From Desulfuromonadales bacterium (GTDB taxonomy: Bacteria; Desulfobacterota; Desulfuromonadia; Desulfuromonadales; Syntrophotaleaceae), in assembly GCA_013619105.1 (NCBI GenBank), contig JABXKU010000015.1, forward strand, positions 1-61,635: a DNA stretch of 61,635 nt, read 5' to 3'. The notes under the pieces were generated by a model. The model was not told the origin of the DNA. It did not search any database and was given only the letters and a program-made list of their open reading frames with translations. This document shows positions 3,969 through 41,479 of the stretch, piece by piece (position 1 is the stretch's first letter; every line of letters begins with the position of its first letter). The translations under genes and the position numbers were made by a program.

Positions 3969-4409
3969 TTACAGTTTACAACGCAAAGCCTTAGTGCCGT
4001 CGGAAAACAGTATCTCGACCTTGTTTGGTTTGAAAAGTTCCTTAACCACGCCGACGCCGAATACCGGATGATCTACCAGATCGTTAAGCTTAAAGGAGCG
4101 CTCCATATTGTAGGCCACTGCTAAACCAGGATCGGCCTCACCGGCTGCGTCCTTCCACTCCTCTTGCAATGCTTCCCGCTTGCGATCTGCCGCAGTGCGT
4201 CTGGGTGCCTTTGGTGCCTTTGGGGTAGTCGTTTTAGCGGCTTTTACTTGCCTGGGCTGCCGATAGTTATGATCGCCTCCGCAGGTATTGCAGCGCACCC
4301 GAGCCGGTTTTTCTTCAACCATAGCGATAATAGTGTGATTGGTAATTTCCTTGCAACGGGTGCAACGAGCATCGACATGATCTCCGGCTTGTTTCTCTGT
4401 ATTAACCAT
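3969..4409 (-). CDS. zinc-ribbon protein with a Lys/Pro-rich linker
   Basis: A 146-residue protein in three parts. An N-terminal zinc ribbon has CTRC (near residue 17) and CNTC (near residue 41). A basic Lys/Thr/Pro linker follows. The C-terminal part (NDLVDHPVFGVGVVKELF...KVEILFSDGTKAL) resembles the small SH3/tudor-like beta barrels found at the ends of DNA- or RNA-polymerase-associated proteins. A nucleic-acid-binding role is inferred. The ATG at 4409 was chosen over an upstream start because AGAGGA precedes it and the product begins just before the ribbon. The exact function is not known to me. Confidence 0.7.
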   Translation of the reverse strand: MVNTEKQAGDHVDARCTRCKEITNHTIIAMVEEKPARVRCNTCGGDHNYRQPRQVKAAKTTTPKAPKAPRRTAADRKREALQEEWKDAAGEADPGLAVAYNMERSFKLNDLVDHPVFGVGVVKELFKPNKVEILFSDGTKALRCKL

Positions 4410-4492
4410 AGTTCCTCTTTGTGCAAATGAAAAGCCACAGGATTTTATTTCCTGCGGCAGCGAGTTATATTGCTGCGACACCCCGAATCAGC

Positions 4493-13406: not shown

Positions 13407-13428
13407 TGCGTTCTCCCCTCGGTTAGCT

Positions 13429-13570
13429 GGTTTCTGCCCGGAAACGGTCCTTTTCCGTGATCTCAGCGTCAATCTGCAGCCTTGCTTGTGCGGCGTACCG
13501 ATGTACGCCTCCGCACAAGGCCTTGACTTCCTTGACCTTACGAAAAACTACTCGTTTCCAAATCAGAAAC
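13429..13570 (-). repeat. palindromic element A, copy 1
   Basis: About 142 bp with matched ends: GTTTCTGCCCGGAAACG at one side and CGTTTCCAAATCAGAAAC at the other. The centre holds the hairpin CTTGTGCGGCGTAC/GTACGCCTCCGCACAAG. Read on the minus strand it shares AAGGTCAAGGAAxTCAAG and GGAAAAGGxCCGTTTCCGG with the copies near 39.0 and 39.8 kb. It fills the gap between the YdbH-like and DUF1318 genes and ends 22 bp before the DUF1318 start codon. Confidence 0.8.
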
Positions 13571-13576
13571 TCGCCA

Positions 13577-13605
13577 GTGTTCATCCGAAATCCTCAGATG
13601 AACAC
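13577..13605. other. stem-loop next to element A copy 1
   Basis: GTGTTCATC and GATGAACAC form a perfect 9-bp stem with an 11-base loop, between the YdbH-like stop codon and element A. There is no T-run. Confidence 0.55.
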
Positions 13606-13658
13606 AAGCTGATTAATCTCAAGATCCTTTGTCACTATAAACCCGGCGTCAGGCAAAA

Positions 13659-38824: not shown

Positions 38825-39021
38825 TCAAAAAAGCGTTTCAAGTCGAGCATGTTTCACTAAATCATGGAGACAAGTCTCCGTACCTTTGAGGAGAAAGACC
38901 TGTTTCATGAATAATCTATCCCACGGCACCCGGTTGCAAATGAGTTCCGCTTGGTTTAATCTGCCAGCAAAATTAATCGTTTATGTTACTAACTAGTGAC
39001 CATTCGGAAACTATGGATGGA
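38825..39021. other. non-coding stretch between asnS and element A copy 2
   Basis: No supported gene. A 29-codon plus-strand frame starting at 38907, behind GAGGAGA, is the best candidate, but it is too short to judge. The stretch holds the GGAGAC-AA-GTCTCC palindrome at 38866-38879. Confidence 0.5.
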
Positions 39022-39246
39022 CACAGTGCAGTTTTCATATGGGAAACGAGCTATTTTCTCCAAGGTCAAGGAAATCAAGCGCTTGCGCGGAGGCGTAGCT
39101 GTTTACGCCGCACCATTTTGCAGGACAGCGAAATGGGACAGCCTCTGGCTGCCCGAAGGGCAAGGGCCAGGGATGGCCCGAGTCACAAGCAAGCGCGCGG
39201 ATTGACGTCGAGATTGGGGAAAAGGGCCGTTTCCGGATGAAAACTA
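39022..39246 (+). repeat. palindromic element A, copy 2, with nested insert
   Basis: About 225 bp with end arms GTTTTCATATGGGAAACG and CGTTTCCGGATGAAAAC. It shares CACAGTGCAGTTTTCATATG and AAGGTCAAGGAAATCAAGCG with copy 3. It is longer than the others because a 73-bp block (39114-39186) interrupts it after GCCGCAC; the block is bordered by CAC on both sides. It ends 30 bp before the PadR-type gene. Confidence 0.8.
39114..39186. repeat. 73-bp insert made of small hairpins, inside element A copy 2
   Basis: The insert is absent from copies 1 and 3. It holds four short inverted repeats in a row: CATTT...AAATG (39114-39135), CAGCC-TCT-GGCTG (39139-39151), GCCC-GAA-GGGC (39151-39161) and GGGCCA-GGGA-TGGCCC (39164-39179). 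CAC occurs at both edges (39111-39113 and 39184-39186). Confidence 0.6.
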
Positions 39247-39276
39247 AATTTATTTCCTGATCCAGAAAGGAATCTC

Positions 39277-39705: not shown

Positions 39706-39738
39706 AAAAAAAGGACGGCTTATAGCCGTCCTTTTTTA
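39706..39738. terminator. intrinsic terminator after the PadR gene
   Basis: AAGGACGGC-TTATA-GCCGTCCTT with A-run before and T-run after; it can work in both directions. Confidence 0.85.
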
Positions 39739-39756
39739 TTCTGTTCTCATCATAAC

Positions 39757-39897
39757 ACAGTGCAGTTTTCATATGGGAAACGAGCAATTTTTCCCAAGGT
39801 CAAGGAAATCAAGCGCTTGCACGGAGGCGTAGCTGTTTACGCCGCACACGCAAACGCCGAAATTGGGGAAAAGAGCCGTTTCCGGATGAAAACTAGT
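39757..39897 (+). repeat. palindromic element A, copy 3
   Basis: About 141 bp with arms GTTTTCATATGGGAAACG and CGTTTCCGGATGAAAAC, same orientation as copy 2. It lacks the 73-bp insert and has a deletion in the right half (GCCGCAC is followed by ACGCAAACGCCG). Its right edge overlaps the stop codon of prfC (minus strand, 39893-39895). Confidence 0.8.
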
Positions 39898-41479
39898 TAT
39901 GCTCCCGCGTCTTGTGGAACACAATCTCAGGCCACTGTTCTATGGTGTGTCCCAGGCGCCATTCACTAGAGGCCAGGAAAGCCAACCCGCCCTCAGAATC
40001 CTTAGCCAGGTTAGCTTGGTTTTTCTTCTCGAATTCTTCCATTTTTTGGTTATCTTCGCAATCCACCCAACGGGCGGTGGCGTAGGTAATTCCCTCATAC
40101 AGCGCATCGACGCCGTACTCATTCTGCAGCCGGGACATGATCACATCAAACTGCAGCACCCCGACGGCACCAAGAATATAGTCACTATTGATCAGCGGCC
40201 GAAACAGCTGCACTGCCCCTTCCTCGGCCAATTGCTTCAAGCCCTTTTCAAGCTGCTTGGTCTTCATAGGATTCTTTAGCCGCACCCGACGAAAGTGCTC
40301 GGGAGCAAAGCTGGGAATGCCGATGAATTTCAAGGGCTCTTTGTCGCTGAAGGTGTCTCCGATTTTAATCGTGCCATGGTTATGGATACCGATGATATCA
40401 CCGGGGAAGGCTTCCTCAACATTGGCACGGTCCTGAGCCATGAAGATTGTGGCGTTGGCCAGGATCACATCTTTGCCAATGCGATGATGCTTGACCTTCA
40501 TGCCGCGCTTGAAAGTGCCAGAGCACACCCTAAAAAAGGCGATACGGTCACGATGGGCAGGGTCCATATTTGCCTGAATCTTGAAGACAAAGCCGGAGAA
40601 GGGCTCCTCGTAAGGAGAGACCTCCCGGGTCAGGGTCTGGGCAGGACGGGGAGCCGGTGCCAGCTCGACAAAAGCCTCGAGCATTTCCTCAACACCAAAG
40701 TTGTTGATGGCACTGCCGAAAAACACTGGAGTCTGGTTGCCTTTTAGGTATTGTTCAAGGTCGAAGGGATTAGCAGCCCCTTCCAGCAGTTCGATATCTT
40801 CGCGTAGTTCATCAGCCTGACTACCGAGCAGTTCGTCGAGGCGTGGGTCAGATAGATCATCGATCACCACCGCATCCTGGGTGCGAGTCTCCTGCCCCGG
40901 CATGAACAGACTCAGGCGTTTGCGGTAGAGGTTATAGGTGCCCTTAAAACGTTTACCCATGCCGATGGGCCAGGACAGAGGCGCGCATTCGACCTGCAGG
41001 GTCTCTTCGATATCGGCCAAGATATCGAGAGGCTCCAAACCTTCGCGATCGAGCTTGTTGATAAAGGTCATAATCGGCGTGTTGCGCATGCGACAGACTT
41101 CCATCAACTTACGGGTCTGGGTTTCGACCCCTTTAGCGTTATCAATAACCATCAGCGCGCTGTCGACAGCAGTCAAAACCCGGTAGGTATCTTCGGAAAA
41201 ATCCTGATGACCTGGGGTATCGAGCAGGTTGACTTCACAATCCCGGTAATTGAACTTCATCACCGACGAAGTGACCGAAATGCCACGCTCCTGCTCCATG
41301 GCCATCCAGTCACTGGTGGCATGGCGAGCCGCCTTGCGGGCCTTAACCGCCCCGGCCATTTGAATCGCCCCACCGAACAACAACAATTTTTCGGTCAGGG
41401 TGGTTTTACCGGCATCGGGATGGCTGATAATACCAAATGTGCGGCGACGGTCGACTTCCTTACGATGATTCTTGCTCAC
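39893..41479 (-). CDS. prfC: peptide chain release factor 3
   Basis: A 528-residue translational GTPase that removes RF1/RF2 from the ribosome after termination. G1 is in [15 protein letters not shown], the switch region in [13 protein letters not shown]3 is [14 protein letters not shown] and G4 is NKLDRE. The RF3-type domains follow: [17 protein letters not shown] and [17 protein letters not shown]. The start is GTG with AAAGGGT 6 bases upstream. Its stop codon falls in element A copy 3. The gene has a strong promoter with an intrinsic terminator between promoter and start codon. Confidence 0.95.

Follow-up and report, generated by a model that had tools for sequence, protein, structure and literature searches.

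Element A, a family of short non-coding mobile DNA with a conserved folded core and ISNCY-type ends, found across a bacterial class

The window analysed here, a stretch of 61,635 nucleotides from a Desulfuromonadales bacterium (contig JABXKU010000015.1), contains three copies of a palindromic repeat that we refer to as Element A. An earlier note on this DNA had recognised all three and read their arms correctly, as GTTTCTG/CAGAAAC in copy 1 and GTTTTCAT/ATGAAAAC in copies 2 and 3. The three locations it gave were also right but its boundaries were too short, as the unit is larger and extends over 13430-13605 in copy 1 and 38996-39244 in copy 2. Beyond what was noted then, our analysis revealed a 5' hairpin, target duplications, a conserved core and an orientation bias of core-only copies. 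The features of the three copies, and the gene whose end carries copy 3, are as follows.

13424-13429, no strand: target duplication of copy 1 on the element's 3' side, TAGCTG on the plus strand (5/6 the same as the other side)
13430-13605, minus strand: copy 1, full-length 176-bp element with arms GTTTCTG/CAGAAAC (nhmmer match; ends and flanks)
13441-13558, minus strand: conserved folded core of copy 1, model positions 48-165, approximate (alignment and fold)
13577-13605, minus strand: 29-nt 5' terminal hairpin of copy 1, the outer end repeat (end pattern with 2 mismatches at 13577-13592; helix 1 of the fold)
13606-13611, no strand: target duplication of copy 1 on the element's 5' side, AAGCTG on the plus strand
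38990-38995, no strand: left flank of copy 2, TAACTA
38996-39244, plus strand: copy 2, 249-bp form (end pattern and nhmmer; empty orthologous site in genome G004)
38996-39024, plus strand: 5' terminal hairpin of copy 2 (end pattern with 2 mismatches at 38996-39011)
39113-39185, plus strand: 73-nt extra module of copy 2, apical part (three copies aligned)
39245-39250, no strand: right flank of copy 2, TAAATT (4/6 the same as the left)
~39755-39893, plus strand: copy 3, without the 5' hairpin and with a shortened core (BLAST and nhmmer)
39894-39899, no strand: right flank of copy 3, TAGTTA, of the TARYTA type
39893-39895, minus strand: prfC stop codon TAG, formed by the target TA and the first base, G, of copy 3 (C-terminus HKTREHN)
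39893-41479, minus strand: prfC (peptide chain release factor 3), with copy 3 at its end (NCBIfam NF001964, E 1.5e-264)

Comparison of 30 copies from the same genome, together with their flanks, defined a common unit that opens with a small hairpin, GTGTCCATCCGGAAAC...GGATGGACAC, followed by a spacer of ~6 bases and then by the long hairpin with the arms, which finishes at the terminus GTTTCCGGATGAAAAC. The typical unit is 176 bp in length, its 5' end forming a second, small hairpin, while copy 2 is 249 bp. The 73-nt module of copy 2 (39113-39185) is GC-rich and was found again in other 249-bp copies (loci L059 and L030), and records titled Latescibacterota and Zixiibacteriota contain another, dissimilar extra stretch at roughly this position (L124 and L152). 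Inspection by eye also showed a terminator-like hairpin with a T run at 39706-39740, after a padR-like gene and just before copy 3.

The outer ends at both sides of Element A match GTNTYCATCCGGAAAC and are imperfect inverted repeats of each other, and the target is TARYTA, duplicated over 6 bp. We examined this duplication in a deduplicated set of 111 full-length copies, leaving out those without both ends, those near contig ends and those with N. Identical 6-bp flanks were present in 42 of the 111, where 2000 shuffles gave 2.2 on average and never more than 8, and the flanks agreed on average at 4.31 of the six positions (0.72) versus 3.03 in the shuffles, with each of the four sampling groups exceeding all of its own shuffles in flank identity. 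When duplication lengths of 1-12 were tested, only 6 and 2 gave a mean identity near 0.7, and the value at 2 reflects TARYTA itself. The flanks were imperfect in the other 69 copies, which we read as decay or as 7-bp duplications. Across all fetched loci, 74 of the 128 end pairs with at least 5/6 matching flank positions were exactly 176 bp in length.

Sites without the element were also identified in relatives, as the earlier note had advised. In G004 the site of copy 2 is uninterrupted and has the length expected for one copy of the target, with no element detected in the stretch, although three of the six bases differ from the restored target and it is not TARYTA. The same site in G003 is likewise uninterrupted and more diverged, again with no element detected in the stretch. 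At the site of copy 3, G002 contains a 38-bp hairpin that lacks the core, and since its junction, GGGAAA, flanks the core on either side, deletion can remove the core. A 73-bp element in the genome of the window and the 38-bp hairpin of G002 (L041 and L342) have this GGGAAA junction in common, which suggests that either the core has been lost repeatedly or the deleted form itself moves.

Using BLAST with copy 3 (E up to 10), we found ~40 places in the genome of the window from 58 matched pieces; here the best 40 of 81 candidates were scored, and copy 1 was not among the matches. Allowing up to 2 mismatches, we counted 63+63 matches to the end pattern in this genome compared with 4+3 for a reversed-pattern control, and the spacings between outer ends include 73, 113, 176 and 249 bp. 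We also searched relatives, as the earlier note had called for. The 176-nt consensus gave matches in 36 of 58 genomes, while a covariance model (R1) matched 130 of the 195 genomes of the class at E 1e-3, or 56 of 72 when counted by genus. As only the best 14 candidates per genome were scored, the per-genome counts from R1 are floors, and six genomes from other families of the class that were scored more deeply gave 71, 69, 16, 16, 63 and 45 matches. Element A is a large family of short non-coding mobile DNA that is found across a bacterial class.

A scan with the centre of the core detected at least 117 stretches, and among the 80 listed most are titled Desulfobacterales, Geobacter(aceae) or Deltaproteobacteria, with some titled as other phyla. 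R1 gave 101 matches on those 80 loci, some of which are a second, opposite-strand match to the same element. All ten records searched that are titled as other phyla or groups gave matches, but the titles belong to binned genomes, and one of them is probably mistaken: a hit in the Chloroflexi-titled G203 (L170) shares its contig number, coordinates and score with the Desulfuromonadales genome G131. The best hits in the Gemmatimonadetes-titled record, the Bdellovibrionales-titled record and both Omnitrophota-titled records reached 30-48 bits. Stronger hits, with best scores of 94-177 bits, came from binned genomes titled Thermoanaerobaculales (9 hits), Latescibacterota (11), Zixiibacteriota (11), Acidobacteriota (33) and Nitrospirae (7). 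We regard the case for a multi-phylum spread of the family as weakened. Searches of Rfam 15 with the window gave no match at the gathering score and four weak matches, none over the family score and overlapping copy 3 only partially, and a search with the copy at L061 gave three matches at E 1.5-6 that all fell well short of the family score. The one copy tried against plasmid and phage collections (L172, from a Deltaproteobacteria bin) gave no match.

The earlier note had suggested that the ends might be recognised by a mobilising enzyme, and had remarked that no such enzyme lies in the window. The latter holds, and a likely mobiliser was found elsewhere. By fetching 40 loci around unpaired ends and then scanning all fetched loci for paired ends with duplications, we identified an autonomous element in G010 (L396, 2523-4205) of 1683 bp, with TAGCTA on both sides, that encodes a 454-aa protein. 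This protein matches NCBIfam NF033593, transpos_ISNCY_1, at E 6.6e-145 (483 bits versus a cut-off of 325), with a weaker match to Pfam DDE_Tnp_1. Four of the 128 pairs in the scan were more than 300 bp apart and one of these, L396, was convincing; no long element was recognised by eye among the end-pattern matches listed for G003, G006, G010, G142, G143, G149 and G161. Within L396, a 261-bp fragment of a second ISNCY copy (4212-4472) adjoins the complete element, the same TAGCTA being common to both, and a third, inverted ISNCY piece lies at 1-770.

ISNCY_1 was detected at E 1e-20 in 20 of the 195 genomes, and above the family cut-off in eight. In the genome of the window, a 205-contig assembly, there was no ISNCY_1 match at E 1e-20 and no DDE_Tnp_1 (PF01609). 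We examined 18 ISNCY_1 loci and in all 13 that are full length the end pattern is present at both ends with up to 2 mismatches; identical 6-bp flanks are found in ten of the 13, and of the remainder L410 has 5/6, L407 has 4/6 and L425 fits an offset or a 7-bp duplication. A search for ends made without the pattern likewise put these ends in first place for 11 of the 13. The remaining five loci represent either fragments or another element; two of these have one such end, and three have none at fewer than 4 mismatches. Element A is present in 17 of the 20 genomes with ISNCY_1 at E 1e-20 versus 113 of the 175 others, and in all eight above the cut-off, although four of these eight (G005, G025, G079 and G160) contain one Element A hit each, two of them weak. 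Comparing Element A with L396 by eye, only the ends are common to both, over ~16-21 bp, with no common subterminal sequence. These shared ends, the target duplications and the empty site all bear out the notion of ends recognised by a mobilising enzyme.

The earlier note had also inferred selection for pairing because the arms appeared to have changed together, and we assessed this in 110 of the 111 full-length copies, those in which the inner arm could be recognised. Their 8-base arms form on average 7.13 Watson-Crick pairs, compared with 6.03 when the right arms were redealt (maximum 6.30 of 2000), a comparison which is not to be read as a probability since the copies are related and not independent. 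Three arm positions switch together with few broken cells. Position 5 is T-A in 57 copies and C-G in 48, with 2 wobble pairs and 3 that are neither Watson-Crick nor wobble; position 6 is C-G in 92 and T-A in 14, with 2 wobble and 2 neither; and position 7 is A-T in 66 and G-C in 34, with 6 wobble and 4 neither. Position 8 shows no reliable pairing (Watson-Crick in 40 of 110). Independent changes in the two arms do occur but they are few, and over positions 1-7 the covariation does not have the look of chance.

Likewise, most helices of Element A covary. RNAalifold proposed 40 pairs, 29 of which have changed on both sides, in an alignment of 34 copies from 29 genomes (A1) that leaves out the partial hit L084. 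With the two outer helices added to the fold, 91.3% of cells pair. Changes on both sides were seen at 38 of the 55 pairs, in 189 cells; shuffles gave 22.6 pairs and 52 cells, and sliding the partners gave no more than 22 and 43. As this alignment also served to derive the structure, the comparison leans in favour of the structure. The folded core of ~118 nt is unusually conserved and is the best-conserved part of the element.

Folding energies showed the forward strand to be the more stable in 106 of the 111 full copies, and in 183 of 192 cores with the 5' part and 77 of 78 without it (260 of 270 in total). G-U versus A-C cells numbered 83 to 22 in the forward structure, 31 to 63 in the structure of the other strand and 29 to 20 in the pairs common to both; as these counts depend on the strand from which the structure was taken, the strand claim rests on the folding energies.

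We then placed the copies relative to genes using a home-made gene caller, which gave called neighbours within 400 bp on both sides for 208 of 297 distinct copies. The p-values of this placement are indications only, since the choice of loci followed the core pattern or the best score, and copies that are related do not count as independent. In gaps between tandem genes, Element A is antisense in 110 cases and sense in 45 under the stricter gene calls (92 versus 36 in a first, looser count). Full-length copies in such gaps divide 51 antisense to 30 sense and copies without the 5' end 46 to 9, where the bias lies wholly in strict core-only copies, as those without the 5' end that keep the 3' end divide 9 to 8 and show no orientation bias. 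There are 53 strict core-only copies, 42 of them with both neighbours within 400 bp, and these are antisense in 37 tandem gaps versus sense in 1, with 4 in convergent and 0 in divergent gaps; in 27 of 41, a stop codon lies -5 to 15 bases from the 3' end of the core. No orientation bias was found in the genome of the window (9 versus 10) or in G010 (3 versus 6), where the copies are mainly end-bearing. No ends are visible on the core-only copies, and decay of the ends or some other way of spreading is possible for them. At L209, three cores lie head to tail with a repeated linker. In G161 (16 R1 matches), none of 10 neighbouring proteins checked at 14 loci was of the Pst/PhoU kind of phosphate uptake.

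In 44 of 112 cases a stop codon facing the 3' end of the element lies between -3 and +2 bases, versus 9 of 57 at the 5' end. In 37 of those 44 the stop lies at the junction itself, where the target TA and the G of the element form TAG. The base after the second copy of the target is A or G in 23 of the 29 junction cases with both ends, and most junction sites were therefore probably TAA or TAG stops before insertion. At prfC the product ends in HKTREHN in the genome of the window, in G002 and in G003, with the stop codons TAG, TAG and TGA, respectively, and in G003 no element was detected.

Comparison of the neighbours of all copies gave nine pairs with homologous genes on both sides, two of them within a single locus. 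Six of the seven other pairs were projected onto the model, one being below the search cut-off, together with one further pair that has just the 3' gene in common. Two orthologous-site pairs have a core identity of 0.89 and 0.83, at which they may represent the same insertion, and show 3 and 5 double compensatory changes with 2 and 1 breaks, respectively. The other five pairs, with identities of 0.59-0.73, show 9, 7, 9, 10 and 17 double compensatory changes with 7, 3, 5, 3 and 2 breaks, and may be independent insertions.

Several other explanations of these data can be weighed. Pairing of the arms could be a by-product of the inverted ends that a transposase requires, with no selection on the folded strand, as transposon ends are inverted by nature and the right end of Element A doubles as one arm. 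This we consider unlikely: the right end not only pairs with the inner arm but changes with it, the internal helices covary too, and one strand folds better in almost all cores (260/270), an asymmetry which is not expected from inverted ends alone. Movement of the hairpin as single-stranded DNA by a RAYT/Y1 transposase, in the manner of REP units, would also fit the strand asymmetry, and RAYT-like Y1 transposase (Y1_Tnp) genes are present in 53 of the 58 genomes searched, with seven in the genome of the window. Many of these genes have open frames of 220-340 codons. The end-bearing copies, though, carry clear 6-bp duplications and Y1 enzymes are not known to leave a target duplication, the lack of one being a mark of REP/RAYT units; we judge this route very unlikely. 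Finally, open frames cross some copies and 29 of 241 elements lie inside a called frame, but loop lengths differ by one or two bases between copies and the helices change in compensating pairs, which makes it extremely improbable that Element A encodes a small protein.

A weightier alternative is that hosts have retained the core as an RNA or transcript-end element, REP/BIME-like at gene ends, that is older than or independent of the ends, with ISNCY mobility a secondary development in one branch. Several of the placement results point this way, namely the strong antisense bias of strict core-only copies (37 versus 1), the stop codon near the 3' end of their cores (27/41), the lack of bias in copies that keep the 3' end without the 5' end (9 versus 8), and the excess of double compensatory changes over breaks in the two orthologous-site pairs. 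Against it, the mRNA of an operon would carry the reverse strand, yet it is the forward strand that folds better (77/78 cores without the 5' part), and orientation is unbiased in the genome of the window and in G010, albeit among mainly end-bearing copies; the gene calls also come from a home-made caller, and core pattern or best score decided which loci were sampled. We see this as a substantial possibility, somewhat short of probable.

Our favoured explanation is that end-bearing Element A is very probably, judging from its sequence, a non-autonomous transposon (MITE) family with ISNCY ends that is moved in trans by ISNCY transposases. Terminal inverted repeats, a target duplication, short length without a transposase gene, many copies and an autonomous partner in relatives are all found. 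The shared ends and target suggest that an ISNCY enzyme moves the short element: an ISNCY transposase would recognise the outer ends GTNTYCATCCGGAAAC, insert Element A at TARYTA and leave a 6-bp duplication. With ISNCY_1 in 20 of 195 genomes but not in that of the window, and Element A in 130 of 195, the mobiliser would have to be lost often. The interior between the ends would be a hairpin of ~118 nt with conserved internal loops rather than a remnant of a transposase gene, and compensatory changes would keep its fold. As it folds better than its complement, the strand beginning GTGTCC is presumably the one shaped by selection, and it would act most simply as RNA. Gene ends may be harmless landing places, because the G of the end and the target TA regenerate TAG at a TAA or TAG stop, and copies there may be kept for an effect on transcripts.

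As for what the core does, we prefer to read it as an RNA-level element that would be carried by the transposon and kept at gene ends in bare form. In its fullest version, this reading has a structured RNA element, class-wide and probably beyond, in two forms: one packed between ISNCY ends and spread by them, and a bare core that lies right behind stop codons, almost always in one orientation, and evolves by compensatory change. We advance this version tentatively, as not far short of probable.

Among known systems, Element A has the same ends, GTNTYCATCCGGAAAC, and the same 6-bp TARYTA duplications as insertion sequences of the ISNCY family (NF033593, transpos_ISNCY_1), which we take to belong here perhaps to the ISDol1 subgroup. 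In contrast to these, it has no transposase gene and contains a conserved hairpin core instead, the subterminal sequences having been compared by eye with L396. REP/BIME palindromes resemble Element A in their gene-end placement, fold and high copy number, whereas the target duplications, the greater length and the ISNCY-type ends are on the side of Element A. The bcr1 element of Bacillus cereus, a mobile repeat of ~150 bp said to have a conserved fold, is alike by description alone and has other hosts.

Closer to the present hosts, 24 'predicted short RNA elements' with the central palindrome GRCGTAGCGCTGCTACGCC were described as intergenic in Geobacter metallireducens in 2009, and in two species a copy sits between dapAB and dapL (PMC2700814). 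The reverse complement of GRCGTAGCGCTGCTACGCC is exact in 20 of 296 Element A copies, or in 24 with one more ambiguous base, and the likeness rests on this palindrome; the accessible text describing that family has nothing on ends, duplications, a transposase, covariation or strand bias (PMC2700814). The Chunjie MITE of Geobacter uraniireducens (2008) is 178-235 bp in length with inverted ends and direct repeats, in 38 copies and 57 partial ones (2024 review, PMC10969869), and by its accessible description may be the same family as Element A. Multicopy sequences of Pelobacter carbinolicus and Geobacter bemidjiensis, which belong to the same class, are likewise intergenic and some are palindromic, as far as their descriptions go (PMC3543383, PMC2996986). 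Matching the end and core sequences against the accessible literature returned one paper, by the palindrome only (PMC2700814), and no account of the ends, duplications or mobiliser of Element A was found among the results listed, from a literature of which subscription papers were only partly covered.

The interiors of MITEs are usually thought to drift freely. Unlike these, the interior of Element A is its best-conserved part, with a fold kept over large distances and one strand favoured. If the two-form reading is true, Element A would be a family of regulatory RNAs or transcript-end elements dispersed by a transposon and able to insert while preserving the stop codon of the host gene. Many bacteria of a class that reduces iron and sulfur are its hosts, and the 'predicted short RNA' of Geobacter from 2009 gains a class-wide family and, for the end-bearing members, a likely mobiliser. 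Should the core indeed act as RNA, a single family would link an ISNCY mobiliser with dozens of copies in each genome and with an effect, open to testing, on the 3' ends of many genes.
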